64,000 nucleotides of DNA from Stenotrophomonas lacuserhaii (lineage in GTDB: Bacteria; Pseudomonadota; Gammaproteobacteria; Xanthomonadales; Xanthomonadaceae). The stretch covers positions 109,091 through 173,090 of the forward strand of contig NZ_JACSQS010000003.1 in NCBI RefSeq assembly GCF_014836545.1, written 5' to 3'. Positions 106 to 64,000 of the stretch are shown in pieces. Positions within the stretch are counted from its first letter, which is position 1, and each line of letters begins with the position of its first letter. A program made the translations under genes and the position numbers. The notes beneath the pieces are model-generated. The model saw nothing but the letters and a program-made list of their open reading frames with translations, made no database searches and had not been told where the DNA came from.

Positions 106-1944
106 TTACTCGACGGTCACGCTCTTGGCCAGGTTGCGTGGCTTGTCCACGTCGGTGCCGCGCGCCAGGGCGGTGTGGTAAGCGAGCAGCTGCACCGGAA
201 TGGTGTGCACGATCGGGCTCAGTACACCGGCATGGCGCGGCGTGCGGATAACGTGCACGCCTTCGGATTCGACGAAGTGGCTGTCCTGGTCGGCGAACAC
301 GAACAGCTCGCCACCCCGCGCGCGCACTTCCTGCATGTTGGATTTCACCTTCTCCAGCAGGCTGTCGTTGGGCGCGATCACCACCACCGGCATGTCTTCG
401 TCCACCAGCGCCAGCGGGCCGTGCTTGAGTTCGCCGGCCGGGTAGGCCTCGGCGTGGATATAGGTGATTTCCTTCAGCTTGAGCGCGCCTTCCAGCGCGA
501 TCGGGTAATGCAGGCCGCGCCCCAGGAACAGCGCGCTGCTCTTGCGTGCGAAGCGCTCGGCCCACGCGGCGATCTGCGGCTCCATGTTCAGCGCATGCTG
601 CACGCTGCCCGGCAGGAAACGCAGCTGCTCCAGGTAGTCCGCTTCCTGTGCGGCATCGATGCGACCCTGCAGCTTGCCCAGCACCACGGTCAGCTGGAAC
701 AGCGCCGCCAGCTGGGTGGTGAACGCCTTGGTCGAGGCCACGCCGATTTCGGCACCGGCGCGGGTGTAGCAGACCAGCTCGCTGGCACGCGGGATCGCGC
801 TTTGCGGCACGTTGCAGATCGACAGCGTGTGCAGGTGTCCCAGTGACTTGGCGTACTTGAGCGCTTCCATCGTATCCAGCGTTTCGCCGGACTGGGACAG
901 GGTGACCACCAGATGCTTCGGATCCGCGTACGCAGCGCGGTAGCGGTATTCGCTGGCGATCTCCACGTTGCACGGCAGGCCGGCGATCGATTCGATCCAG
1001 TAACGCGCGGTCATGCCGGCGTAGTAGCTGGTGCCACAGGCCAGGATCTGCACTCCGGTGATGCCCGACAGCACCGCTTCGGCGTTCTTGCCGAACAGTT
1101 CGGCCGGGAATCCACCCGCGTCGATCGCCGCTTCGATGGTATCGCCCAGCGCGCGCGGCTGCTCATGCACTTCCTTCTGCATGAAATGGCGATACGGACC
1201 GAGTTCCAGCGAGGCCAGCGAGACATCGGACAGGTGCTCGCCACGATCGATCGGCTGGTCATGCGCGTCATACACCTGCACGCCATCGCGGCGCACGTCG
1301 GCGGTGTCGCCCTCTTCAAGGAAGATCACCCGGCGCGTGGAGGAAATGATCGCCGATACATCGGAGGCGACGAAATTCTCGCCTTCGCCCAGGCCAACCA
1401 GCAGCGGGCAGCCCATGCGGGCGCAGACGAAGTGCTCCGGCTCGGCCCGGCTCATCACCGCCAGCGCATAGGCGCCGGTCAGTTCCTTTACCGTGCGCTG
1501 CAGCGCGGACAACAGGCTTCCGCCGTCCTTGAGGTGATGGTGCATCAGGTGGGCGATGACTTCGGTATCGGTCTGCGATTCGAACACGTAGCCCAGCGCG
1601 CGCAGTTTCTCGCGCTGCGCTTCGTGGTTTTCAATGATGCCGTTGTGCACCAGCGCCACGCCATCGCTGATGTGCGGGTGGGCGTTGGCCTCGGTGACGC
1701 CGCCATGGGTTGCCCAGCGCGTATGCCCGATGCCGAGCACGCTGTTGAAGCCTTCGGCACCGGCGGCAGAGGCCATCTCCGAGACGCGGCCGGTGCGGCG
1801 TACGCGGCGGATCTCCGCTTGCTCTCCAGGCTCAAGCACGGCGATGCCCGACGAATCGTAGCCGCGGTACTCCAGCCGCTTCAGGCCTTCGATGAGCACC
1901 GGCACCACATCGCGATCAGCGATCGCACCCACGATTCCGCACAT
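106..1944 (-). CDS. glmS: Glutamine-fructose-6-phosphate aminotransferase (isomerizing)
   Basis: GlmS makes glucosamine-6-phosphate from fructose-6-phosphate and glutamine, the first step towards UDP-GlcNAc for peptidoglycan and LPS. The 612-residue protein begins MCGIVGA, so after Met removal Cys2 is the N-terminal nucleophile of the glutaminase domain (about 1-220). GHTRWATHG and HNGIIEN are glutaminase motifs. Two SIS sugar-isomerase domains follow (about 290-600), with CGTSYYAG and SQSGET. The end [13 protein letters not shown] is the usual GlmS C-terminus. Length is normal for the family. The gene is cytoplasmic and monocistronic here; glmU, which acts later in the same pathway, lies 7.6 kb away. 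Confidence 0.98.
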
Positions 1945-2020
1945 AGTCCCGCATCCCTTGGTGTTGATCCGTACATTCTAGCGTGGCTGTCCGCCCTGGC
2001 CGCCTGGCCGCTTAACGAAA

Positions 2021-2054
2021 GTGTCCGTGCGCCTGTCCGCGGACACACGGACAC
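2021..2054. promoter_or_regulatory. Nested inverted repeat, candidate enhancer for the sigma-54 regulator
   Basis: GTGTCCGTG at 2021-2029 pairs perfectly with CACGGACAC at 2046-2054. Between them sits the palindrome TGTCCGCGGACA (2034-2045). The four half-sites share TGTCC/GGACA, as expected for two dimers of an NtrC-type activator. The centre is about 85 bases upstream of the start predicted from the sigma-54 promoter at 2099, a usual enhancer distance. Binding by the regulator encoded at 6834-8177 is an inference. Confidence 0.6.
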
Positions 2055-2098
2055 CCGCGCGAAGATCGCAACTGCTTGATCGTAAAGGGGTGAAAAGT

Positions 2099-2115
2099 TG
2101 GCACGCTCCCTGCTT
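2099..2115 (+). promoter_or_regulatory. Sigma-54 (-24/-12) promoter of the ABC exporter operon
   Basis: The sequence TGGCACGCTCCCTGCTT matches the sigma-54 consensus TGGCACG-N4-TTGCW with one mismatch (CTGC for TTGC). The invariant GG (2100-2101) and GC (2112-2113) are separated by exactly 10 bases. Transcription would start near 2125, just before the ATG at 2149. It fits an operon that encodes its own sigma-54-dependent response regulator. Confidence 0.7.
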
Positions 2116-2148
2116 CCGTACAGGCAGTCCGACCACCCAGGCCCTTCG

Positions 2149-3426
2149 ATGATCCGTGACACTTCCGCCCAGGACCAGATCGTTTCCACCGCCACGCCCG
2201 GTTCGGCCGCCAGCACCTGGCGCCGTTACCGCTGGCCGGCGCTCGCCGCGCTGCTGGTGCTGGCTGGCATTGCCTTTGCCGTGCATGGCTGGCTCAACGC
2301 CAGCCGCTCGTTCGACAGCAGCCGGGTGCGCATCGCGCAGGTGGAACGCGGCGACCTGGTGCGCGACATCGCCGCCGACGGCCGGGTGATCGCGGCCAAC
2401 AGCCCGGTGCTGTACGCGATCTCCGCCGGCACGGTCACGCTGAAGGTGGTGGCCGGTGACGTGGTCAAGAAGGGCCAGGAACTGGCCTTGATCGACAGTC
2501 CGGAACTGCGCAGCAAGCTGGCACAGGAAGAGGCCACCCTGGCCGGGCTGGAAGCCGAATCCAGCCGTGCCGCACTGGATGCCACCCTGACCCGCGCTAA
2601 ATCGCGCAAGGACACCGACCAGGCCGGCATCGAGAAAGTCGCCGCCGAGCGCGACCTGCAGCGCTACCAGCGTGGTTTCGACGGCGGCGCGGTGCCGCAG
2701 ATCGACCTGGCACGCGCGCAGGACGCCTTGAAGAAAGCCGACATCAACCTGGTGAACGCCCAGGCCGACACCCGTCTGCAGGGCCAGGGCGCCGACCTGG
2801 ACGCGCGCAACAAGCGCCTGCTGGCCGACCGCCAGCGCGCGGTGGTGGCCGAGGTCAAGCGCCAGGTGGACGCGCTGACCCTGCGCGCCCCGTTCGACGG
2901 CCAGGTCGGCCAGGTGCAGGCGGTGCAGCACACCAACCTGGTCGCCAATGCGCCGGTGCTGGGCGTGGTCGACCTGTCCAATTTTGAAATCGAGATCAAG
3001 GTGCCGGAAAGCTTCGCCCGCGACCTGGCGATCGGCATGCCGGCGCAGCTGACCAGCGGCAGCGGCCAGCCGTTCGCCGGAGAGATCAGCGCGGTGTCGC
3101 CGGAGGTGGTCAACGGCGAGGTCAATGCCCGCGTGCGCTTCGCCGACAAGCAGCCGGCCGGCCTGCGCCAGAGCCAGCGCATGTCCGTGCGCGTGCTGCT
3201 GGATACGCGCAAGGACGTGCTGAAGGTGGAGCGTGGCCCGTTCGTCGAACAGGGCACCGGCAATGCTTACGTCATGGACGGCAGCACCGCCGTGCGCCGC
3301 CCCGTGCAGCTGGGCGTGAGCAGCCTGGGTGAAGTGGAGATCCTGTCCGGCGTGCAGCCGGGAGATCGCATCGTGGTCGCCGGCAGCGACCTGTTCAAGG
3401 ACGCCGAGCGCGTTTCCATCAACTGA
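2149..3426 (+). CDS. Periplasmic adaptor (HlyD/MacA-like) of an ABC exporter
   Basis: This is a membrane-fusion protein that should link the inner-membrane ABC transporter encoded next to it to an outer-membrane channel. From the ATG at 2149 it has 425 residues: a short cytoplasmic N-terminus, one membrane segment (about 29-47), a split biotinyl-lipoyl-like domain, a helical hairpin rich in Ala, Glu, Lys and Arg (about 120-230) and a beta-barrel/membrane-proximal part. I chose 2149 because an in-frame start further upstream (2098) would lie inside the sigma-54 promoter. The ATPase gene starts 30 bases after the stop. The substrate is unknown; relatives export peptides or macrolides. Confidence 0.85.
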   Translation: MIRDTSAQDQIVSTATPGSAASTWRRYRWPALAALLVLAGIAFAVHGWLNASRSFDSSRVRIAQVERGDLVRDIAADGRVIAANSPVLYAISAGTVTLKVVAGDVVKKGQELALIDSPELRSKLAQEEATLAGLEAESSRAALDATLTRAKSRKDTDQAGIEKVAAERDLQRYQRGFDGGAVPQIDLARAQDALKKADINLVNAQADTRLQGQGADLDARNKRLLADRQRAVVAEVKRQVDALTLRAPFDGQVGQVQAVQHTNLVANAPVLGVVDLSNFEIEIKVPESFARDLAIGMPAQLTSGSGQPFAGEISAVSPEVVNGEVNARVRFADKQPAGLRQSQRMSVRVLLDTRKDVLKVERGPFVEQGTGNAYVMDGSTAVRRPVQLGVSSLGEVEILSGVQPGDRIVVAGSDLFKDAERVSIN

Positions 3427-3456
3427 CACCACCCCTTACCGAATCTGGAGAGAACC

Positions 3457-4173
3457 ATGCTTGAGATGCGCGCTGTCGCCAAAGTGTTCCGCACCGAACA
3501 GGTGGAAACCCATGCCCTGCGTTCGCTTGACCTGCTGGTCAACGAGGGCGAGTTCGTTGCCGTGACCGGTCCGTCCGGCTCGGGCAAGACCACGTTCCTC
3601 AACATCGCCGGCCTTCTGGAAACCTTCACCAGCGGCACCTACCTGCTCGATGGCCAGGATGTCAGCAAGCTCGGCGACGATGCGCGCAGCCGCCTGCGCA
3701 ACCAGAAGATCGGCTTCATCTTCCAGGGCTTCAACCTGATCCCCGACCTCAACCTGTTCGACAACGTCGATGTGCCACTGCGCTACCGCGGCATGTCCGC
3801 GGCCGAACGCCGCGAGCGCATTGAAAAGGCGTTGAGCCAGGTCGGCCTGGGCTCGCGCATGAAGCACTATCCCAGTGAGCTGTCCGGCGGCCAGCAGCAG
3901 CGCGCGGCGATCGCCCGCGCACTGGCCGGCAGCCCGCGCCTGCTGCTGGCCGATGAGCCGACCGGCAACCTGGACAGCACCATGGCGCGCGGGGTGATGG
4001 AGCTGCTGGAGGAAATCAATGCCGCCGGCACCACGATCGTGATGGTCACCCACGATCCGGAACTGGCCGCGCGTGCGCAGCGCAACGTGCACATCGTCGA
4101 TGGCCAGGTGACCGACCTGCTGCGCGAGCCGGTGCTGGCAACCGCGCGGCGCATCGCCGCCGTCAACGAGTGA
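3457..4173 (+). CDS. ABC transporter ATP-binding protein (MacB/LolD type)
   Basis: The 238-residue ATPase energises the exporter. Walker A is GPSGSGKTTF, the signature is LSGGQQQRAAIARAL and Walker B is LLLADEPTGNLD, followed by the switch histidine in VMVTHDPELA. The sequence FIFQGFNLIPDLN is the Q-loop typical of the LolD/MacB group. It is a stand-alone ATPase, unlike MacB, where ATPase and permease are fused. The ribosome site GGAGAG precedes the ATG. The stop overlaps the start region of the first permease, so translation is probably coupled. Confidence 0.92.
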   Translation: MLEMRAVAKVFRTEQVETHALRSLDLLVNEGEFVAVTGPSGSGKTTFLNIAGLLETFTSGTYLLDGQDVSKLGDDARSRLRNQKIGFIFQGFNLIPDLNLFDNVDVPLRYRGMSAAERRERIEKALSQVGLGSRMKHYPSELSGGQQQRAAIARALAGSPRLLLADEPTGNLDSTMARGVMELLEEINAAGTTIVMVTHDPELAARAQRNVHIVDGQVTDLLREPVLATARRIAAVNE

Positions 4174-5486: not shown

Positions 5487-5507
5487 GCACGTCAACGAGG
5501 AATCACC

Positions 5508-6722
5508 ATGGACATCCGCCCCATCCTCAGCACGCTGCGCCGGCACAAGACCGCCGCCTCGCTGATCGTGCTTGAAGTCGCACTGACCTGCGCCATCGTC
5601 TGCAACGCGCTGTTCCTGGTCAGCCAGCGCATCGAGAAAATCAGCCAGCCCAGCGGCCTGGCCGAAAAAGAACTGGTGGTGGTGCGGGTCAGTGGCATCG
5701 GCAAGCAGACCGATGCCATGGCGCGCACCCGCGAAGACCTGGCATCGCTGCGCGCGATCCCCGGGGTCACCAGCGTGACCCGGGCCAGCCAGCTGCCGTT
5801 CCGCACCAGTTCGTCCAACAGCGGTATCTCGCTCACGCCCGAACAGGAAAAGCCGACCATCCATTCCACCATGTACTACGTCAACGAGAACGCGCTGCCT
5901 ACGCTGGGGTTGAACCTGGTGGCCGGACGTGACTTCCAGCCCGGCGAATTCGTCGATCGCGAAGAAGCCATGAAGGCCTTCCCGAACGACAAGGCCGTGG
6001 CGGGCATCTTCAGCAAGGCCGCTGCCGACCGGCTCTCGCCGGGCACGTCCGCTGTCGGCAAGACCTTCTACATCGGCACCCAGCCGGTGCATGTGGTGGG
6101 CGTGGTGGAGTATCTGGCGACGCCTACCGGTTGGGACGACAACACCGACATGTCCTTGCTGCTGCCGATGCGTACCACGTTCACTGAGGGGCTGTACCTG
6201 CTGCGTACCGATCCGCAGCGCCGGCAGGAAGTGCTGACCGCTGCGTTGGCGGCGCTGGAACGCAACGATCCGAACCGGCTGGTGCGCGAGAAGCTCACCT
6301 ACGAGGAGCAGCGCGACAGCTACTTCAAGAATGACCGGGCGATGGTCGGCCTGCTGATCACCGTGTGCGTGGCCCTGCTGGTGGTGACCGCGCTGGGCAT
6401 CGTCGGGCTGGCCAGCTTCTGGGTGCAGCAGCGCAGCAAGCAGATCGGCATCCGCCGCGCACTGGGTGCGACGCGGGGACAGATCCTGCGCTACTTCCAG
6501 ACCGAGAACTTCCTGCTGGCCACGGTGGGTATCGTGCTGGGCATGCTGGCCGCCTACGCGATCAACCTGGCGCTGATGAACACCTACGAGCTGCCGCGCA
6601 TGCCGCTGGTCTACCTGCCGGTGGGCGCGGTGCTGCTGTGGCTGCTGGGCCAGGTGGCGGTGTTCGGGCCGGCCCGGCGCGCCGCCGCAGTACCGCCGGC
6701 GGTGGCCACCCGCGGCAGCTGA
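5508..6722 (+). CDS. ABC transporter permease, MacB/FtsX family (second of two)
   Basis: This 404-residue protein has the same plan as its neighbour: one N-terminal membrane segment, a periplasmic domain and three C-terminal segments with QIGIRRALGATRGQIL. The two permeases are clearly related in the FtsX region but differ in the periplasmic domain, so the exporter is probably a heterodimer. The ribosome site AACGAGGAATCACC precedes the ATG. It is followed by about 110 bases containing GTAG-type repeats before the regulator gene. Confidence 0.88.
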   Translation: MDIRPILSTLRRHKTAASLIVLEVALTCAIVCNALFLVSQRIEKISQPSGLAEKELVVVRVSGIGKQTDAMARTREDLASLRAIPGVTSVTRASQLPFRTSSSNSGISLTPEQEKPTIHSTMYYVNENALPTLGLNLVAGRDFQPGEFVDREEAMKAFPNDKAVAGIFSKAAADRLSPGTSAVGKTFYIGTQPVHVVGVVEYLATPTGWDDNTDMSLLLPMRTTFTEGLYLLRTDPQRRQEVLTAALAALERNDPNRLVREKLTYEEQRDSYFKNDRAMVGLLITVCVALLVVTALGIVGLASFWVQQRSKQIGIRRALGATRGQILRYFQTENFLLATVGIVLGMLAAYAINLALMNTYELPRMPLVYLPVGAVLLWLLGQVAVFGPARRAAAVPPAVATRGS

Positions 6723-6765
6723 GGCATACCCGCCCCGGCTTGTATATCCTGCTGCCATGATGTCC

Positions 6766-6818
6766 GTAGCGCCGTGCCCTGCCCGGCGCCTGCATTCGGC
6801 CGAGCACGGCTCGGCGCC
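6766..6818. repeat. GTAG-type palindromic repeats between permease and regulator genes
   Basis: An imperfect copy starting GTAGCGCCG (6766-6790) is followed by the hairpin GCCGAGCACGGCTCGGC (6799-6815). They resemble the REP hairpins found elsewhere in the window. They may dampen read-through from the transporter genes into the regulator genes. Confidence 0.5.
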
Positions 6819-6833
6819 AACTGAAGCTGCCGC

Positions 6834-8177
6834 ATGCCCGCGATCCTGATCATCGACGACAACACCAGCGTGGCCACCGCGCTGGACGTGCTGTTCTCGC
6901 TGCACGACATCGATACCCTGCAGGCGACGTCGCCGGAACAGGGGCTCGCGCTGCTGCGCGAACATCCGGTGGACCTGGTGATCCAGGACATGAACTTCAC
7001 CGAGGACACCACCTCCGGCGAAGAAGGTGAGGCATTGTTCGCCCGCATCCGCCAAGCCCACCCGGACCTGCCGGTGATCCTGCTGACCGCGTGGACCCAC
7101 CTCGGCACGGCGGTGGAGCTGGTGAAGGCCGGCGCGGCCGACTACCTGCCCAAGCCGTGGGATGACCGCAAGCTGCTGACCACGGTCAACAACCTGCTGG
7201 AGCTCTCCGAGGCGCGCAGCGAGCTGGATCGTCGGCGTCAACGCGAGCAGCGCCAGCGCAGCGCACTGGAGCAACGCTACGATCTGTGCGGTGCGGTGTT
7301 CGCCGATCCTGCCAGCGAGCGCGTGATCGCGCTGGCCTGCCAGGTCGCGCGGTCGGCGCTGCCCGTGCTCATCACCGGCCCGAACGGCGCCGGCAAGGAA
7401 AAGATCGCGCAGATCATCCAGGCCAACTCCGCGGCGGCGAAGGGCCCGTTCGTGACGGTCAACTGTGGCGCATTGCCGGCCGAGCTGATCGAAGCGGAAC
7501 TGTTCGGTGCCGAGGCAGGTGCCTACACCGGAGCCAACAAGGCACGCGAGGGAAAATTCGAGGCCGCCGACGGTGGCACGCTGTTCCTGGACGAGATCGG
7601 CAACCTGCCGCTGGGCGGCCAGATGAAGCTGCTGCGCGTTCTGGAAACCGGCCGCTTCGAACGGCTCGGCTCCAACCGCGAACGCCAGGTCAAGGTGCGC
7701 GTGGTCAGCGCCACCAATGCCGACCTGGGCGCGATGATCCGCGAGGGCAGCTTCCGCGAAGACCTGTATTACCGGCTCAACACGGTCGAGCTGACGCTGC
7801 CTCCACTGGCCGAGCGGCCCGGCGATATCGTGCCGCTGGCCGAGCACTTCCTGGCAGCTGACAAACCACTGTCCGCCGCCGCGCGCACGGCATTGCAGCG
7901 CCACCCCTGGCCAGGCAACGTACGCGAACTGCGCAACGTGATCCAGCGCGCCGAACTGCTGGCCATCGGCAACCGCATCGAAGTGGCCGACCTCAACCTG
8001 CCGCGCGCGCCCGCCGCCCCGCGTGGCGCCGGCGCGATGATCGACCCCGACCGCCAGCGCATCGAAGGCGCGTTGGCCAGCAACCACGGCATCATCGCCC
8101 AGGCCGCTGCCGAGCTGGGGCTGAGCCGGCAGGCCCTGTACCGGCGCATGGACCGCTTCGGCATTCCGCGCGAATGA
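6834..8177 (+). CDS. Sigma-54-dependent response regulator (NtrC family)
   Basis: The 447-residue protein has a receiver domain (1-120, phospho-acceptor Asp52 in VIQDMNF), an AAA+ sigma-54 activation domain (about 155-385) and a C-terminal Fis-type helix-turn-helix (AAAELGLSRQALYRRM). The Walker B region is GGTLFLDEIGNL. Two motifs depart from consensus: the sigma-54 contact loop is GAYTGA (229-234) instead of GAFTGA, and Walker A is GPNGAGKE (182-189) instead of GESGTGKE. Key Lys188 is kept, so ATP use is plausible. The ATGA overlap with the kinase gene shows coupling. It probably activates the promoter at 2099. Confidence 0.93.
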   Translation: MPAILIIDDNTSVATALDVLFSLHDIDTLQATSPEQGLALLREHPVDLVIQDMNFTEDTTSGEEGEALFARIRQAHPDLPVILLTAWTHLGTAVELVKAGAADYLPKPWDDRKLLTTVNNLLELSEARSELDRRRQREQRQRSALEQRYDLCGAVFADPASERVIALACQVARSALPVLITGPNGAGKEKIAQIIQANSAAAKGPFVTVNCGALPAELIEAELFGAEAGAYTGANKAREGKFEAADGGTLFLDEIGNLPLGGQMKLLRVLETGRFERLGSNRERQVKVRVVSATNADLGAMIREGSFREDLYYRLNTVELTLPPLAERPGDIVPLAEHFLAADKPLSAAARTALQRHPWPGNVRELRNVIQRAELLAIGNRIEVADLNLPRAPAAPRGAGAMIDPDRQRIEGALASNHGIIAQAAAELGLSRQALYRRMDRFGIPRE

Positions 8178-9520
8178 AGCAACGCTCCTTCACCTTCCAG
8201 CTGTTCCTGCGCCTGCTGCCGGTATTGGGCCTTGCGGCCGCACTGCCGTGGCTGCTGGCGTACTGGATGGACCACGGTTGGGGCGTGGCGATCCTGTCGG
8301 GAATCGTGCTGCTGGCGCTGATGTGGTTCAGCCTGAACCGCGCCATCGCACCGGTCCGCTCGCTGATGCGCGCGCTGTCCGGCGTGGTCAGCAGCTACAA
8401 GGACGGCGAGTTCAACTTCAGCGTGCACTGGTCGGGGCAGGACGAGCTGGGCCACCTGGTGGAGGCGCACCGCGAACTGGGTGACGTGCTGCGCGAGCAG
8501 CGGCAATCGCTGGTGCAGCGCGAACTGCTGCTGGACACGATGGTGCAGAACACCCCGGTGGCGATGCTGCTGCTGGCCGCCGGTGGCGATGGCCTGCAGC
8601 GCGTGGTGTTCTCCAACCTGGCCGCGCGCAAGCTGCTGCACGGCGGGTTCAAGCTCGAAGGACAGCGTTTGGCCGAACTGCTGGAACAGATGCCCATCGC
8701 CCTGCGCGATGCCATCTCGCGCGGCGGCGACAGCCTGTTCGCGGTGCGCGAAGAGGACAGCGAGGACGAGGAAGACGAGCAGATCTACCATCTCTCGCGC
8801 CGCGCCTTCCATCTGAATGGACGACCGCACGACCTGCTGCTGATCCGCCTGCTCACCGCCGAACTGCGCCGGCAGGAAGTACAGACCTGGAAAAAAGTCA
8901 TCCGCGTGATCAGCCACGAGCTCAATAATTCATTGGCTCCCATTGCGTCCCTGGCGCACTCCGGCGGTGAACTGGTCAAGCGTGAACGCTTCGACCGCCT
9001 GCCGGAGATCTTCTCTACCATCGAAGACCGTGCTCGCCATCTGGAGGGCTTCATCCGCGGCTACGCGCGGTTTGCCAAGTTGCCGCAGCCGCAGCTGCAG
9101 ACGGTGCACTGGGCACCTTTCCTGGCCAGCCTGCAGCAGCAGATTCCGTTCCAGATGGACGCGCTGGATGAAGACCTGCACAGCCGGGTCGACATCGCCC
9201 AGCTGGGCCAGGCGCTGCTGAACCTGGTCAAGAATGCGCACGAAGCCTGCGCCGACGCCGACCCGCCCAACGACGACGTGCGGGTCAAGGTCACCCGCCT
9301 GCCGCAGTGGCTGCGGCTGGATGTACTGGATCGCGGCAAGGGCATGAACGAGGCCGTGCTGCAGAACGCACTGACGCCCTTCTATTCCACCAAGCGCAAC
9401 GGCACCGGCCTGGGGCTGGCGTTGACCCGCGAGATCGTGGAAGCGCACGGCGGTCGCATCGCGCTGCAGAACCGCACCGAAGGCGGCCTGTGCGTGTCGT
9501 TGTTGTTGCCGCAGAACTGA
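8174..9520 (+). CDS. Sensor histidine kinase (NtrY-like), partner of the upstream regulator
   Basis: The 448-residue protein has two adjacent N-terminal membrane segments (about 12-52) with almost no periplasmic loop, then a HAMP-like linker, a PAS-like region (about 115-220), the H-box VISHELNNSLAPIASL with His248, and a HATPase domain with NLVKNAHEA, DRGKGM and NGTGLGLALTREIV. The missing sensor loop suggests it senses something in the membrane or cytoplasm, perhaps envelope stress or the exporter itself. Its ATG overlaps the regulator stop by four bases. Confidence 0.92.
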   Translation: MKQRSFTFQLFLRLLPVLGLAAALPWLLAYWMDHGWGVAILSGIVLLALMWFSLNRAIAPVRSLMRALSGVVSSYKDGEFNFSVHWSGQDELGHLVEAHRELGDVLREQRQSLVQRELLLDTMVQNTPVAMLLLAAGGDGLQRVVFSNLAARKLLHGGFKLEGQRLAELLEQMPIALRDAISRGGDSLFAVREEDSEDEEDEQIYHLSRRAFHLNGRPHDLLLIRLLTAELRRQEVQTWKKVIRVISHELNNSLAPIASLAHSGGELVKRERFDRLPEIFSTIEDRARHLEGFIRGYARFAKLPQPQLQTVHWAPFLASLQQQIPFQMDALDEDLHSRVDIAQLGQALLNLVKNAHEACADADPPNDDVRVKVTRLPQWLRLDVLDRGKGMNEAVLQNALTPFYSTKRNGTGLGLALTREIVEAHGGRIALQNRTEGGLCVSLLLPQN

Positions 9521-9569
9521 CCCGCGACGCCGAGCATGGCCCGGCGTTGCCGGGCGTGCCGGGAACCGC

Positions 9570-10937
9570 TCAGGATTTCTTCTGCGGCCGCTGCCAGCCT
9601 TCAACCACCTGCTGGCGTGCCCGCGCCACGGTCAGCTGGCCATCCGGCGCGGTGCGGGTGATCACCGATCCGGCGGCGATGGTCGCGCCCTCGCCCACCA
9701 GCACCGGTGCCACCAACGAACTGTTGGAGCCGATGAAGGCGTTGTCGCCGATCGTGGTCTGCGACTTGTTCACGCCGTCGTAGTTGCAGGTGATGGTGCC
9801 GGCGCCGATGTTGACCTTGCTGCCGATGACCGCATCGCCCAGGTAGCTCAGATGGTTGGCCTTGCTGCCCACGCCCATGCGGATCTTCTTGGTTTCCACG
9901 AAGTTGCCCACGTGCACGCCGTCGGCCAGCACGGTGCCAGGGCGCAGCCGCGCGAACGGCCCGACGTGCGCGGCGCCTTCAGACACCACGCCCTCCACGT
10001 CGCAGTGGGCCAGCACCGTGGTGCCCGGGCCCAGGGTGACGTCCTTGAGCCGCGTGAAGGGCCCGATGCTGACCCCGTCGCCCAGTTCCACGCGACCTTC
10101 CAGGATCACGTTGACATCGATCTGCACGTCGCGGCCGACGATCACCTCGCCCCGGATATCAACCCGGGCGGGGTCCAGCACGCGCGCGCCCTGCACGCAC
10201 AGCGCACGCACCGCGCGCTGTTGCCAGGCCCGTTCCAGCTGCGCCAGCTGCCACGGATCATTGGCCCCTTCGGCGTCCTGCGGATCGGCGACCAGGGTCA
10301 TGTCCGCAGCGGTGTACTCGTTGGCGGCAAAGGCGAACACATCGGTCAGGTAGTACTCGCCCTGCGCGTTGGCATTGGACAGCTGCGACAGCCAGCGACG
10401 CAGCGCGGTGGACTCGGCGGTGATGATGCCGGTATTGATGGTGCGGATCCGGCGCTGTTCCTCGCTGGCGTCCTTCTGCTCCACGATCGAGCCGACCTTG
10501 CCCTCGGCATCGCGCACGATGCGTCCGTAGCCGGTCGGGTTGTCCATTTCCGCCGCCAGCACCGCCAGCCGGCCCGGCTGGTCCAGCAGCTCGCGCAGGG
10601 TCTGCGCACGGATCAGCGGCACATCGCCGTACAGCACCAGCACCTGCGCGGCGTCCGGCACCTCCGGCATCGCCTGCGCCACGGCATGTCCGGTGCCCAG
10701 CTGCTGCGACTGCTCGGCCCACAGCAGGTCGGGCTGGCTGGAAAAATGCGCGCGCACGGCATCACCGCCATGGCCGTACACGATGTGGATCGCATCCGGC
10801 TTCAGCTCGCGTGCGGTGGCGATCACGTGGGCCAGCATGGGTTGTCCAGCCACCGGCTGCAGCACCTTCGGCAATACGGACTTCATGCGCTTGCCGGCGC
10901 CAGCGGCGAGGATGATGACGTGCAGGGCTTGGGTCAT
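9570..10937 (-). CDS. glmU: Bifunctional N-acetylglucosamine-1-P uridyltransferase / glucosamine-1-P acetyltransferase
   Basis: GlmU acetylates glucosamine-1-phosphate and then couples it to UTP, giving UDP-GlcNAc. The N-terminal pyrophosphorylase domain (1-230) starts with [13 protein letters not shown], and [11 protein letters not shown] is a nucleotide-site motif. The C-terminal left-handed beta-helix (about 250-450) shows hexapeptide repeats and the acetyltransferase segment [20 protein letters not shown]. The length of 455 residues is normal. The gene ends 49 bases from the kinase gene, convergent with it, and is divergent from the GtrA-like gene. Confidence 0.98.
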
Positions 10938-57629: not shown

Positions 57630-58049
57630 TCACGGCATCGAGCTGCCGGCGTGCCCGGTCACCAACTCTCCATCTTCCTTTCGGAACGGTCCGGGCAGCG
57701 GCGGCAGGATGTCCAGCACCACTTCCGAAGGCCGGCACAGACGAGTACCCCTGTCGGTTTGTACGAAAGGACGATTGATGAGTATCGGGTGCGCCAGCAT
57801 CGCATCAAGCAGCGCGTCGTCGCTCAGTGCTGCGTCGCCCAGCCCGAGTTCGTCATACGGGGTTCCCTTCTGCCGGATGGCATCGCGCACGCTCAACCCC
57901 GCCGCCGTAATGAGCGCGACCAGGCGCGCACGGCTGGGCGGGTGTGCCAGGTAGTCGATCACTTCCGGTTCGATCCCGGCGAAGCGGATCAGCGCGAGTG
58001 TATTGCGCGAGGTGCCACACTTGGGGTTGTGATAGATGACAGCGTTCAC
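57630..58049 (-). CDS. arsC: Arsenate reductase, glutaredoxin-coupled
   Basis: ArsC reduces arsenate to arsenite so it can be exported. The 139-residue protein has Cys11 in [12 protein letters not shown], and [16 protein letters not shown] carries the second conserved Arg. This is the glutaredoxin-dependent class. Its ATG overlaps the arsH stop by four bases. Confidence 0.95.
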
Positions 58050-58786
58050 GCACTTTCCTCCTGATTCAAAACGGTCTCGACCACGTCTGCAGCGGCCGCC
58101 AGCGCCGCCGCTTCAACGGCGCCCTTGCGCTCGCTGTAGCGGTCGATCAGGTAGTCACTGCGCCCGCGCACCAGCAGGGTGAACTTGACCAGTTCCTCCA
58201 TCACGTCCACCACGCGATCGTAGTACGCCGAAGGCTTCATTCGACCTTCGTCGTCAAACTCCTGCCACGCTTTGGCGACCGACGACTGGTTGGGGATCGT
58301 CACCATCCGCATCCATCGGCCGAGCACGCGCAGCGCGTTGACCACGTTGAACGACTGCGAGCCGCCGCAGACCTGCATCACGGCCAGCGTACGGCCCTGG
58401 GTGGGGCGCACGCTGCCCTCTTCGAGCGGCAGCCAATCGATCTGGTTCTTGAATACCGCGGTAAGGGTGCCGTGGCGTTCCGGGCTGACCCATACGTGGC
58501 CCTCCGACCACAGCGAGGCCTGCCGAAGCTCCTGCACCTTGGGGTGGGTAGCCGGCACCGAGTCAAGCATTGGCAGCTCGTGTGGATCGAACAGGCGGGT
58601 TTCCGCCCCGAGCTGTTCCAACAGCCGCTGAGCCTCCAGCGCCAGCTTGCGGCTGAACGACTGAGGTCGCAGCGAGCCGTACAGGATAAGGATGCGCGGG
58701 CGATGGGGCTGCGCAGCGGGGTCGTTGAGCTTGGCGGCCGTGGGGATGTCCAAGGCACTTGGGACCACGTTGGGGATCTGCTGCAC
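58046..58786 (-). CDS. arsH: ArsH NADPH-dependent FMN reductase
   Basis: ArsH is a flavoprotein that oxidises trivalent organoarsenicals. The 246-residue protein has the flavodoxin-type motif [18 protein letters not shown] and [20 protein letters not shown]. First gene of the minus-strand ars transcript, divergent from arsR, with 39 bases between the starts. Confidence 0.95.
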
Positions 58787-58807
58787 GGGGTTGTCCTGCG
58801 ATATCTA

Positions 58808-58831
58808 TTCCATTATTCTAGAATCATGGAA
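58808..58831. promoter_or_regulatory. Near-perfect palindrome, candidate ArsR operator
   Basis: TTCCATTATTCTAGAATCATGGAA (24 bases at 58808-58831, given here as arms TTCCAT...ATTCTAGAAT...ATGGAA) is a palindrome with a single mismatched pair, centred on CTAG. It covers the arsR start codon (58826) and lies in the short divergent gap with arsH, so one ArsR dimer could block both transcripts. Confidence 0.65.
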
Positions 58832-59140
58832 CATACAAACGCAACCCACGCCTTGGCAGCCCTGGGTCATGCTACCCGCCTGTCGATCTTCCGCCTTCTG
58901 GTTCAGGCTGGCAGTGTCGGCAAGCTGGCCGGCGACATTGCCCAGGCGCTCTGCTTGCCTGGCGCCACACTCTCCTTCCACCTGAAGGAACTGCTGAGTG
59001 CGGGACTGATCAGCGCCGAGCAGCGTGGCCGGACCATCTGCTACCGGGCCGAGTTCGTGGTGATGAACGAGCTGGTGGCCTACCTGACTGAAAACTGCTG
59101 CGCCGACGAACAGGCCTGTGAACGGCCGGCAGGCTGCTGA
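58826..59140 (+). CDS. arsR: ArsR-family arsenite-responsive repressor
   Basis: The 104-residue winged-helix repressor (LPGATLSFHLKELLSAGLIS as recognition region) has the C-terminal triad Cys91-Cys92-Cys98 (NCCADEQACE). The same spacing is the arsenite site of the Acidithiobacillus ferrooxidans ArsR, unlike the helix-3 site of plasmid ArsR. Arsenite binding should release the ars promoters. Its ATG lies within the palindrome. Confidence 0.93.
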   Translation: MEHTNATHALAALGHATRLSIFRLLVQAGSVGKLAGDIAQALCLPGATLSFHLKELLSAGLISAEQRGRTICYRAEFVVMNELVAYLTENCCADEQACERPAGC

Positions 59141-59160
59141 CTCCTTACCCCAGAGAGCGC

Positions 59161-59340
59161 CAGAATGATCCGTCGTGTTCTGCTTGCCCGGTGGTGTTTG
59201 GCGATTTCGTGCAGATGCACTGGGGCCTGTTCGATCCGACCGGTGTGGAAGGCTCGGATGCAAAAAAGGCTGAAACATTCGACCGGGCACATCAGATCAT
59301 CCTCAAGGCCCAGCTCGATCCGATTGCGCAGATCCACTGA
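59161..59340 (+). pseudogene. Remnant of a low-molecular-weight-phosphatase-type arsC
   Basis: The frame reads CPVVFGDFVQMHWGLFDPTG then [20 protein letters not shown], the C-terminal third of thioredoxin-coupled ArsC (CPV..G....HWG..DP). The P-loop CxxNxxRS with the catalytic Cys is missing. An ATG (59165) with a start MIRRVL, in another frame, could be what is left of the N-terminus after an internal deletion. It lies between arsR and acr3, the normal place of this gene. Confidence 0.75.
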
Positions 59341-59360
59341 CCGTCCTCCCGGAAAATTCC

Positions 59361-60419
59361 ATGACCACTGACACCTCCCGCTTGTCCTTTCTGGACCGGT
59401 ACCTGACGCTGTGGATCTTCGCCGCCATGGCGCTCGGCGTCGGCCTGGGCGCTTTGTTCGAGGGCGTGCCCAGCGCGCTCAACAGCCTGTCAATTGGATC
59501 AACGAACATCCCGATTGCGATCGGTTTGATTCTGATGATGTACCCGCCGCTGGCGAAGGTGAAGTACGAGGAACTGCCCGCGGTCTTCGCGGACAAGCGG
59601 GTGCTGATGCTCTCGTTGCTGCAGAACTGGATCGTCGGTCCGTTCCTGATGTTCGGCCTGGCCGTGCTGTTCCTGCGCGACTACCCCGAGTACATGACCG
59701 GCCTGATCCTGATCGGGCTGGCGCGCTGCATTGCCATGGTCCTGGTGTGGAACCAGCTGGCACGCGGCGACAGCCAGTACGTGGCCGGCCTGGTGGCATT
59801 CAACTCGATCTTCCAGATCGCGCTGTTCAGCGTCTGCGCGTGGTTCTTCCTGTCCTGGTTGCCGCCCGTGTTCGGCCTGCAGGGCAGCGTGATCGACGTC
59901 AGCTTCTGGACCATTGCCGAGGCGGTGCTGATCTACCTGGGCATTCCGTTCCTGGCCGGCTTCCTCACCAGCCGCTGGCTCAAGGCGCGTAATGGGTTGC
60001 GCTGGTATGAAGAGAAATTCCTGCCTGCAATCAGTCCGATCACCCTGGCTGCGCTGCTGTTCACCATCGTAGCGATGTTCAGCTTGAAGGGCGGCGACGT
60101 GCTGCGGATTCCGATGGACGCGGTACGCATCGCGATCCCGCTGACCCTGTACTTCATCATCCAGTTCGTCATCAGCTTCTTCATGGGCAAGCTGATCGCC
60201 AAAGACTATCCCCGCACCACCGCGATCGCGTTCACCGCAGCAGGCAACAACTTCGAACTGGCAATCGCCGTGGCCATCGCGGCGTTCGGGCTGGCTTCCC
60301 CGGTAGCCTTCGCGGCAGTGATCGGCCCGCTGGTGGAAGTACCGGTGCTGATCCTGCTGGTCCACGTCGCCTTGCGGCTGGGCAAACGCTACTTTCCTGC
60401 CGATGCAGGGAGCCGCTGA
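59361..60419 (+). CDS. acr3: Arsenite efflux permease, ACR3 family
   Basis: Acr3 exports arsenite using the proton gradient. The 352-residue protein has ten predicted membrane helices; the essential Cys in [13 protein letters not shown] and [14 protein letters not shown] are family motifs. Twenty bases separate it from the arsC remnant, so it is transcribed from the arsR promoter. Confidence 0.95.
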
Positions 60420-60737: not shown

Positions 60738-60813
60738 TGGTGGGCCCACCAGGATTCGAACCTGGAACCAAAGGATTATGAGTCCTCTGCTCTAACCGTT
60801 GAGCTATAGGCCC
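60738..60813 (-). tRNA. tRNA-Ile (anticodon CAU)
   Basis: The 76-base gene folds into a cloverleaf: acceptor GGGCCTA with TGGGCCC, anticodon stem GAGGA/TCCTT with loop CTCATAA, T-arm CCAGG-TTCGAAT-CCTGG, and an encoded CCA end. CAU could mean Met, but the ACTCATAAT anticodon arm and body resemble the tRNA-Ile whose C34 is changed to lysidine by TilS and reads AUA. Confidence 0.92.
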
Positions 60814-60925: not shown

Positions 60926-61837
60926 TTACGCCACCGCGAAGGGCCCCTGCCGCTCGAAGTAACGTCGCAGGCGGGTACAGGCCGGGGCGAGCACGGCCTC
61001 CAGCTCATCGCTGGGGTCCGGCTGCCACGTCACGTTGACCACACCCGGCAGGTCTTCCACGCCGGCATGTTCACCACGTGCCTCAAGCAGCACGGTACGG
61101 TCGCAGCCGAGCACGCCCAGCAGCACGCCGGTCTCCAGCAGCAGCGCGTCCCGCGTGGCCGGCCATGCATCGGCCGTTGCCGGTGCGTTGTCGTCACCGG
61201 AGATCACCACCGCGAAATCAACGCCCGCCGCCAGCTCCTGCAGACGCTGCACGGACAGCCCTCCACTGCGGGCCAGGCCATCCTGCCACTGGCGCACGGT
61301 GAAGCCTTCGCAGGCCAACGTTTCCTGCACCACCTGCGCCGCCGCAGCCGCCTGCGGCGACGCCAGCACCAGCACCTTGGTGCGGTCGCGGGCACTGCCG
61401 ATGTGGTCGTTGCGCTGGTACAGCCTGCGCGCCAGTTCCTGCGCCACGTAGCGGTGGATCTGCGGGAACTGCTCGGCAAGGTCCTCCAGGCGGGCCGCAC
61501 TGACACGTGCGACGACACTGGGTTCGGCAGCTACCACGGTCGCCGAGCGGATCTGCGTCGGCTGCACGGCGGCCATCTCGCCCACATGCTCGCCGGCTTG
61601 GCGTCGTGCGACGCGCTTGCCATTGACGAACACGTCGAAGGATCCGGTCACGATGAAGTAGACGTCATTGTCCACTCCACCCTGGTGAATGACGGCGGCA
61701 CCGGTCTGTGCCTCCAACAAGGTCACGCTGCTGGCGAGTGCTTCGGCGAGCGCCTTGTCGCCGCGTACCAGTTTCTGCTCGGACAGCGTGTACAGCAGAT
61801 TGCGGCGACCTTCGTCACCGGTAAAGCGAGCCAACAT
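60926..61837 (-). CDS. Cyclic-nucleotide-binding domain fused to a TIR-like nucleotide-binding domain
   Basis: From ATG 61837 (AGGGGGA upstream) the protein has 303 residues. Residues 20-140 are a CRP-type cNMP-binding domain with an intact phosphate-binding cassette (G82-E-H-V-G86-E87 ... R97-S98-A99). Residues 154-275 match the TIR-like CAP12/Pycsar type (PF10137): KVLVLAS, DFAVVISGDDN, RDALLLETGVLLGVLG with Glu235 at the NADase Glu position, and VEDLPGVVNV. Pycsar PycTIR effectors have this architecture and destroy NAD+ when cUMP or cCMP binds. No cyclase gene is adjacent, so it could instead be a cAMP/c-di-GMP-responsive signalling protein. Confidence 0.82.
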   Translation of the reverse strand: MLARFTGDEGRRNLLYTLSEQKLVRGDKALAEALASSVTLLEAQTGAAVIHQGGVDNDVYFIVTGSFDVFVNGKRVARRQAGEHVGEMAAVQPTQIRSATVVAAEPSVVARVSAARLEDLAEQFPQIHRYVAQELARRLYQRNDHIGSARDRTKVLVLASPQAAAAAQVVQETLACEGFTVRQWQDGLARSGGLSVQRLQELAAGVDFAVVISGDDNAPATADAWPATRDALLLETGVLLGVLGCDRTVLLEARGEHAGVEDLPGVVNVTWQPDPSDELEAVLAPACTRLRRYFERQGPFAVA

Positions 61838-62115
61838 TGAAGTCCCCCTGTGGACTGCATCCGTCATGGATGGCATGTGCAGATTAACCCCTGATCTGTG
61901 ACGTAGAGCACACGTTTTTGGCAAATTAATGTGGAGCAGCTGAACAACCTGAATACGGTCATACACATCAAGGATCCGCTGGAACCCAGGGGCCTGATAC
62001 GGCAGTCCATGTTACGGAACATGTTACGAAAAATTCGAAATTGTTTCGGATGATTCTTTTAAAAACAGTGCCTTATCAACGTTACTGTTACGTAAAAAAC
62101 TTCTTCATGACCAAC
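61838..62115. promoter_or_regulatory. AT-rich upstream region of the cNMP-binding/TIR-like gene
   Basis: TGTGACGTAGAGCACA (61897-61912) resembles a CRP/Clp site (TGTGA-N6-TCACA, one mismatch). CATGTTACG occurs twice (62008-62016 and 62020-62028), and GTTACG again near 62087. The stretch is clearly richer in A and T than the neighbouring genes. Which protein binds is unknown. Confidence 0.45.
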
Positions 62116-62139
62116 GAAAAACCCCGCCGGAGCGGGGTT
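62116..62139 (-). terminator. rpoD terminator
   Basis: On the minus strand AACCCCGC and GCGGGGTT pair around a 4-base loop and are followed by TTTTCG. It lies 31 bases after the rpoD stop. Confidence 0.85.
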
Positions 62140-62169
62140 CTTCAAAAACACTTCAGGCACCGACAGGGA

Positions 62170-64000
<1,831 letters not shown>

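Follow-up and report, generated by a model that had tools for sequence, protein, structure and literature searches.

A cyclase-less PycTIR relative beside rpoD in Stenotrophomonas may bind cUMP without degrading NAD+

A 64,000-nucleotide stretch of Stenotrophomonas lacuserhaii DNA (assembly GCF_014836545.1, contig NZ_JACSQS010000003.1, positions 109,091 to 173,090; hereafter the window) carries an orphan gene related to PycTIR, the receptor of the Pycsar defence system (Table 1). The 303-residue product has a cyclic nucleotide-binding domain (CNBD; PF00027, residues 43-123, E 1.4e-14) followed by a TIR domain (PF10137, residues 154-269, E 2.8e-11). Both matches lie above the Pfam curated cut-offs, and this order of the two domains on one chain is that of a PycTIR. 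The best PADLOC match was the TIR 'Effector' model (1.2e-89), followed by the PycTIR model (2e-86, residues 1-299), and the closest solved structures by sequence were the PycTIR chains 8jsj and 8jsk. An initial annotation had proposed a PycTIR architecture with an intact phosphate-binding cassette, a PF10137/TIR-like C-terminal domain that keeps its Glu, and chromosomal neighbours including rpoD with no adjacent cyclase gene. All of this held, the Glu being E235. A GTG at 61966 is a mechanically possible alternative start, but the ATG was preferred because homologues align from it, including Arg4 and Arg12. The CRP/FNR-type C-terminal helix-turn-helix (PF00325, PF13545) gave no match in the protein at E ≤ 1, unlike in two CRP-like proteins encoded elsewhere in the genome.

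Table 1. Positions in the window of the orphan gene, its two halves and the adjoining features.
Feature	Position	Strand	Remarks
Orphan PycTIR-like gene (CNBD + TIR, 303 residues)	60926..61837	-	ATG at 61837, stop 60928-60926; open reading frame, domain and homologue matches
Residues 1-150: N-terminal extension and CNBD	61388..61837	-	27/27 consensus positions; G86, E87, A89, R97, S98, R138 and N143 kept
Residues 151-303: TIR domain (PF10137)	60929..61387	-	25/49 consensus positions kept
rpoD (sigma 70), one anchor of the rpoD-tRNA interval	62170..63912	-	neighbour gene
tRNA (anticodon CAT), second anchor of the rpoD-tRNA interval	60738..60813	-	ARAGORN: Met
rpoD-pycTIR spacer	61838..62169	-	HipA-like yjjJ sits here in three other carriers
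Putative CRP/Clp-type site 5' of the ATG	61897..61912	-	9/10 half-site letters; putative function

The structure predicted by AlphaFold2 from a 65-sequence alignment had a mean predicted local distance difference test (pLDDT) score of 88 and a predicted template modelling (pTM) score of 0.53, with residues 220-226 below a pLDDT of 50. A Foldseek search with this model returned the cyclic UMP (cUMP) complex 8jsk as the top match, and the TIR-STING structure 9lmq was also listed (2.7e-9). The VIA-align table consisted mostly of CNBDs and held little information on the TIR half.

To describe the two halves, the clade containing the window protein (11 sequences, 10 distinct: 4 genomic and 7 from a protein search) was set against 76 further PycTIR-like proteins (71 distinct: 65 collected by similarity search and 11 from loci in the genus; P0069 and P0074-P0076 left out). 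The 76 were collected by similarity to the window protein, and consensus positions were the columns at least 85% conserved among them. The genomic members are orthologues present in 4 of 91 Stenotrophomonas genomes, at identities of 100, 96, 82 and 78% (the window genome G000, G011, G069, and G089, which is S. tumulicola). The clade kept all 27 CNBD consensus positions, against a mean of 25.6 for the 76. The seven residues that contact cUMP in PsPycTIR (G86, E87, A89, R97, S98, R138 and N143) were retained in every clade member. According to the account of PsPycTIR (PMC11224242), R138 and N143 contact the uracil, and the R138A, N143A and N143S changes each left the protein insensitive to cUMP. 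Because the contact residues are retained, the orphan protein very probably still binds cUMP.

The clade kept only 22-26 of the 49 TIR consensus positions; the mean of the 76 was 46.8, and the lowest counts among them were 27 (P0067) and 30 (P0051). The BB-loop Phe at position 189 was Ala, Val or Thr in all 11 members (Ala in the window protein) and Phe in 74 of the 76 others. Asn231 (Ala in the window protein) and Tyr194 (Leu) were also absent throughout the clade and present in 74 and 71 of the others, respectively, while Tyr271, found in 75 of them, was Trp in all 11. In the alignment to 9lmq, W184 fell on W34 and F189 on F39, the numbering of 9lmq being equated with that of the paper through matching residues. 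In that protein, the Cap12 TIR-STING ElSTING, ribose is believed to be bound by W34 and nicotinamide by F39, and the catalytic role falls to E86 (PMC12421889). The window protein shares with ElSTING the PF10137 family and the counterparts of Trp34 and Glu86, but its sensor is a CNBD instead of STING and the counterpart of Phe39 is missing. Position 114 was Ala in all 11 members. As reported for PsPycTIR, E114 forms a salt bridge with R12 in the filament, and E114R blocked NADase activation and weakened phage defence (PMC11224242). The clade keeps R12 and lacks E114, though this Glu is not universal (57 of the 76 others). All 18 cyclase-linked PycTIRs of Xanthomonadaceae keep Phe189, Asn231 and Glu114.

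Since the BB-loop Phe, Glu114, Asn231 and Tyr194 are absent in all members, the NADase activity has probably been lost or strongly weakened. The kept TIR Glu misled the initial annotation, which had pointed to effectors that kill by degrading NAD+; that Glu is indeed present, but the claim is weakened by the four missing residues and by the fast evolution of the TIR half. The window protein matches PsPycTIR and NpPycTIR as described (PMC11224242; 8jsk, 8jsj) in its length and in its domain order (CNBD, then TIR). It also shares their N-terminal extension, Arg4 and Arg12 included, and retains the catalytic Glu and every named cUMP residue. It differs from them in lacking an adjoining PycC cyclase, the four residues above and about half of the TIR consensus. 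A domain swap with a foreign TIR was not supported. The best PDB match of the TIR was PycTIR 8jsj, and residues 151-303 as sole query returned six proteins, all of the same clade, at the sensitivity of a word-based search.

The two halves also evolve at different rates. By sequence identity, the CNBD was the better conserved half in all 55 clade pairs, and the TIR in 2532 of the 2850 pairs formed by the other proteins. Over the six genomic clade pairs, the ratio of nonsynonymous to synonymous substitution rates (dN/dS; Nei-Gojobori, own script) lay between 0.03 and 0.12 in the CNBD and between 0.11 and 0.34 in the TIR. The dS values were broadly alike in the two halves and were not lowered in the CNBD. 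The TIR/CNBD ratio of dN was 2.8-5.9 in the clade and 0.11-0.21 in the cyclase-linked PycTIRs, whose TIR dN/dS was 0.015-0.038; both cyclase-linked ranges come from three usable pairs that all share L012 (4 of the 55 pairs among 11 sequences passed the dS filter, and one of these had no replacements). The clade was monophyletic, with a support of 1.0, in the domain trees built from all 87 sequences. Its stem and crown lengths were 0.41 and 0.51 in the CNBD tree and 1.47 and 2.52 in the TIR tree, with 28.8 and 19.9, respectively, for the rest. The TIR stem was the second longest branch of its tree, after that of P0067. Selection on signal binding appears to have stayed strict, while the features that couple binding to NAD+ loss appear to have been given up. 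The missing cyclase and the relaxation of the TIR relative to the cyclase-linked proteins might also suit a decaying Pycsar remnant, caught before its frame breaks. Such decay is quite improbable given the open frame in all four genomes, the low dN/dS of the CNBD at undiminished dS, its complete set of consensus positions, and the persistence of the gene at 77-78% identity in S. tumulicola.

No PycC gene lay beside pycTIR at any of the four clade loci. In contrast, PycC adjoins pycTIR in all 17 other full-length loci found in Xanthomonadaceae, 11 in the genus and 6 in other genera; the latter set, with 7 PycTIRs, came from 395 family genomes at E ≤ 1e-20. These cyclase-linked proteins (11 from the genus and 7 from other genera) are 33-39% identical to the window protein and have the same CNBD signature. 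Genome-wide, neither of the PycC models PDLC00766 and PDLC00762 matched anything in G000, G011 or G069 at E ≤ 1, and both found a PycC in G089, beside its second PycTIR. As controls, PDLC00766 detected PycC in 6 of 6 Pycsar genomes, and PDLC00762 in 2 of 2, besides G089 in each case. G069 is a single contig; G000 and G011 are drafts of 36 and about 150 contigs, with completeness values of 100 and 99. The two matches of PDLC00734 in the window genome both fell on the CNBD part of the model. PF00211 was rejected as a cyclase detector, and its negative result was not used on its own, because it gave no match at E ≤ 1 in the PycC-bearing genomes G086, G062 and G007.

The sole class III cyclase-like gene seen in the window genome (L098, 351-2888, minus strand) adjoins a CNBD-GGDEF gene, and the pair spans 351-4022. 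Visual inspection of the sequence pointed to a cyclase domain in the product of the cyclase-like gene, as did a weak match to PF00211 (E 0.45); Pfam at E ≤ 0.01 gave tetratricopeptide repeats only. A class I adenylate cyclase was sought in the same genome and not found. The pair resembles XC_0250/XC_0249 of Xanthomonas in make-up and adjacency; XC_0250 is described as making cyclic GMP (cGMP), which the CNBD of XC_0249 binds, with homologues in S. maltophilia (PMC3770947).

The initial annotation had offered two options, and the first was a working effector responding in trans to a cyclase encoded at another locus. The retained CNBD residues and catalytic Glu, the XC_0250-like protein encoded beside a CNBD-GGDEF protein, and the PycC beside the second PycTIR of G089 are all consistent with such an NADase. 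It is nonetheless rather improbable: none of the 11 members has the BB-loop Phe, Asn231, Tyr194 or Glu114, no PycC was detected in G000, G011 and G069, and XC_0250 makes cGMP (PMC3770947), which at 10 µM did not activate PsPycTIR in the reported assays (PMC11224242). The PycC that the annotation had thought worth seeking elsewhere in the draft genome was not detected with the PycC models. Its second option, a TIR-like domain in a non-killing use, lies closer to the evidence. A CNBD retuned to a different nucleotide, such as cGMP made by the cyclase present in the genome, would accord with the XC_0250-like gene being the only class III cyclase-like gene seen and with the failure to find a class I enzyme. 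We regard this as highly improbable, as the uracil-contacting Arg138 and Asn143 are kept in 11 of 11 members and their change abolished the cUMP response of PsPycTIR in the published work (PMC11224242).

We tentatively favor a reading in which this orphan PycTIR relative binds cUMP without degrading NAD+ and acts as a sink or brake for cUMP, not as a killer. If cUMP binding is kept and the NADase is lost or weakened, the chance of a sink or brake role might be put at even or slightly better. A non-lethal cUMP receptor is the most economical mechanism, and it would most likely be a sink or brake. The cUMP would come from outside the gene: from a plasmid-borne Pycsar system, from that of a neighbouring cell, or, in G089, from its own second locus. 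Once made by this foreign or second PycC, it would be captured by the orphan protein, whose TIR would not complete an NADase filament. Free cUMP would then drop and the cell would be spared. It is conceivable, if somewhat doubtful, that a Pycsar suicide effector has here become a chromosomal cUMP-capturing immunity protein, its sensor held fixed by selection and its killing half disarmed, that shields its host from the cUMP of plasmid or neighbour Pycsar systems.

Several observations weigh against the sink or brake. A cUMP source is known in only one of the four carriers, which would leave a brake idle most of the time. A sink would also have to be abundant. Glu114 is also missing from 19 of the 76 other PycTIR-like proteins, and therefore its loss is by itself no evidence of disablement. 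P0067 and P0051 are nearly as low as the clade in TIR count, which means that the clade is not wholly separate by this measure. E235, W184, R229 and D230 are kept in all 11 members, and the clade-specific TIR residues L156, E177, Q200, L239 and W271 are likewise found in 11 of 11. AlphaFold2 modelled the TIR confidently except around residues 214-228, and the TIR dN/dS indicates a domain still under constraint. This remaining constraint, the fold and the clade residues exceed the needs of a bare sponge. They leave room for a changed signalling output, and the kept Glu makes a weak NADase possible.

A cUMP-gated signalling protein that kept the TIR fold and changed its output, acting as an adaptor or forming another NAD-derived product at a low rate, would account for a TIR dN/dS below 1, the clade-wide TIR residues with E235 and W184, and the confident fold with its TIR-STING match. 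Yet no partner gene was seen to accompany it, the only recurring neighbours being rpoD, yjjJ (in three of four) and the tRNA, and the TIR is the faster-evolving half; we consider this unlikely. A preprint on TirB and TirD of Dictyostelium, which belong to the same TIR family, offers a precedent for a kept Glu without toxicity: both keep the Glu and are described as not toxic in E. coli, though TirD is described as toxic in yeast independently of the Glu (PMC13142454).

The favored cUMP sink resembles the phage sponges Tad1, Tad2 and Acb2 (PMC12043709) only in the proposed capture of an immune messenger. Unlike them, the gene is bacterial and chromosomal and belongs to the effector's own family, and the ligand would be cUMP. 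The sponge review, as far as its accessible text goes, names no cUMP sponge beside these three (PMC12043709). The known anti-Pycsar route is enzymatic, as described for Apyc1 (PMC9117128). The literature searched on PycTIR, Pycsar and cUMP sponges showed no disarmed or cyclase-less PycTIR.

The distribution of the gene is narrow. Nineteen of the 91 Stenotrophomonas genomes matched the window protein at E ≤ 0.001. PycTIRs at 35-39% identity were found in 11 of the 91, with G089 having both kinds, and CNBD-only matches in 5. The RpoD sequences of the four orthologue carriers are the four closest (98-100%, the next genome at 95%), and therefore the gene tracks a single clade. Every carrier has pycTIR downstream of rpoD and upstream of the CAT tRNA, in one orientation. 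The conservation beside rpoD across Stenotrophomonas that the initial annotation had raised was thus found in this four-genome clade only; "chromosomally fixed" describes 4 of 91 genomes and not the genus. The neighbouring tRNA was also there, but the assignment to tRNA-Ile differs from the ARAGORN call. tRNA-Ile2 likewise has a CAT anticodon, so Ile is possible, but only possible.

Of the 86 non-carrier genomes in which rpoD was matched, the rpoD-tRNA interval was fetched for 57, and no pycTIR was found there; three of these stretches (L056, L078, L089) were shortened by contig ends. Among the 57, a yjjJ match occupied the interval in 26 genomes (in two of these it was partial or broken), and the tRNA followed rpoD in 55, as it did in all four carriers. 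The window has no yjjJ; as the gene is present in the other three carriers, its loss from the window is inferred by parsimony. yjjJ was rejected as a hidden cyclase, being a HipA-like protein by NF007297 and PF07804. A mobile island at the tRNA was not supported either, since the rpoD-tRNA order is stable and gene content alone varies. The genes past pycTIR differ among the four carriers. In the window, an arsenic-like cluster, recognized by sight (ArsC-, ArsH-, ArsR- and Acr3-like; 57630-60419), lies just past the tRNA. Among 50,697 phage records, relatives were limited to three weak matches over the CNBD; matches were found in 24 plasmid records and covered 80% or more of the query in 20 of these. 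In the accessible text of a defence-island survey of S. maltophilia, rpoD goes unmentioned and most Pycsar systems are assigned to an island flanked by rpoE and metR (PMC11680222).

Within the window, the CRP/Clp-like site upstream of the ATG is alone in matching 9 or more of the 10 half-site letters. The corresponding sites of the four carriers have 9, 9, 8 and 7 of 10 letters, and a score of 7 was reached by 583 of 2000 shuffles. The site is weakly conserved and is a lead at the level of sequence. Seven of the eight cyclase-linked loci scanned (L006, L009-L012, L014 and L020) have CRP/Clp-like palindromes of 9-10 of 10 letters about 30-40 bases upstream of the start of the pycTIR match, and L005 has 7. 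These palindromes hint that PycTIR might be under CRP-family control in the genus.

Other Pycsar loci varied in make-up. In L024 (G060; 5499-10258) and L107 (G360), PycC and an E1-E2 protein (PDLC00855) lie beside PycTIR, with a JAB protein in G060; these ancillary genes are CBASS type II-like, within a Pycsar locus. In G360 (L102/L107), a tandem pair of PycTIR genes adjoins PycC. On the Xanthomonas euvesicatoria plasmid pLMG930.1 (L108, 3989-4908), the annotation of a Pycsar locus splits the CNBD and TIR between two adjoining genes, with a cyclase gene on either side. The small PycC is short in L028 (G089) and L032 (G008), at 209 residues compared with 250 elsewhere, and the model match in G007 (C44) is equally short. 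The large PycC of L036 (G063) is in separate pieces.

The Pycsar receptors known so far are suicide effectors coupled to a cyclase encoded next door. In most members of the present clade the receptor has been maintained with no detectable cyclase, and selection is stronger on its signal-binding half than on its killing half. The case also suggests that retention of the TIR glutamate is insufficient for inferring NADase activity. If the cUMP sink or brake is correct, automatic defence annotation would overcount working effectors, as the PADLOC models match this protein as a PycTIR or TIR effector. Going by the literature searched, the protein would then be the first cellular, effector-derived cUMP sponge. 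cUMP would have a non-lethal use in bacteria, and immune effectors could be domesticated into regulators or antidotes.
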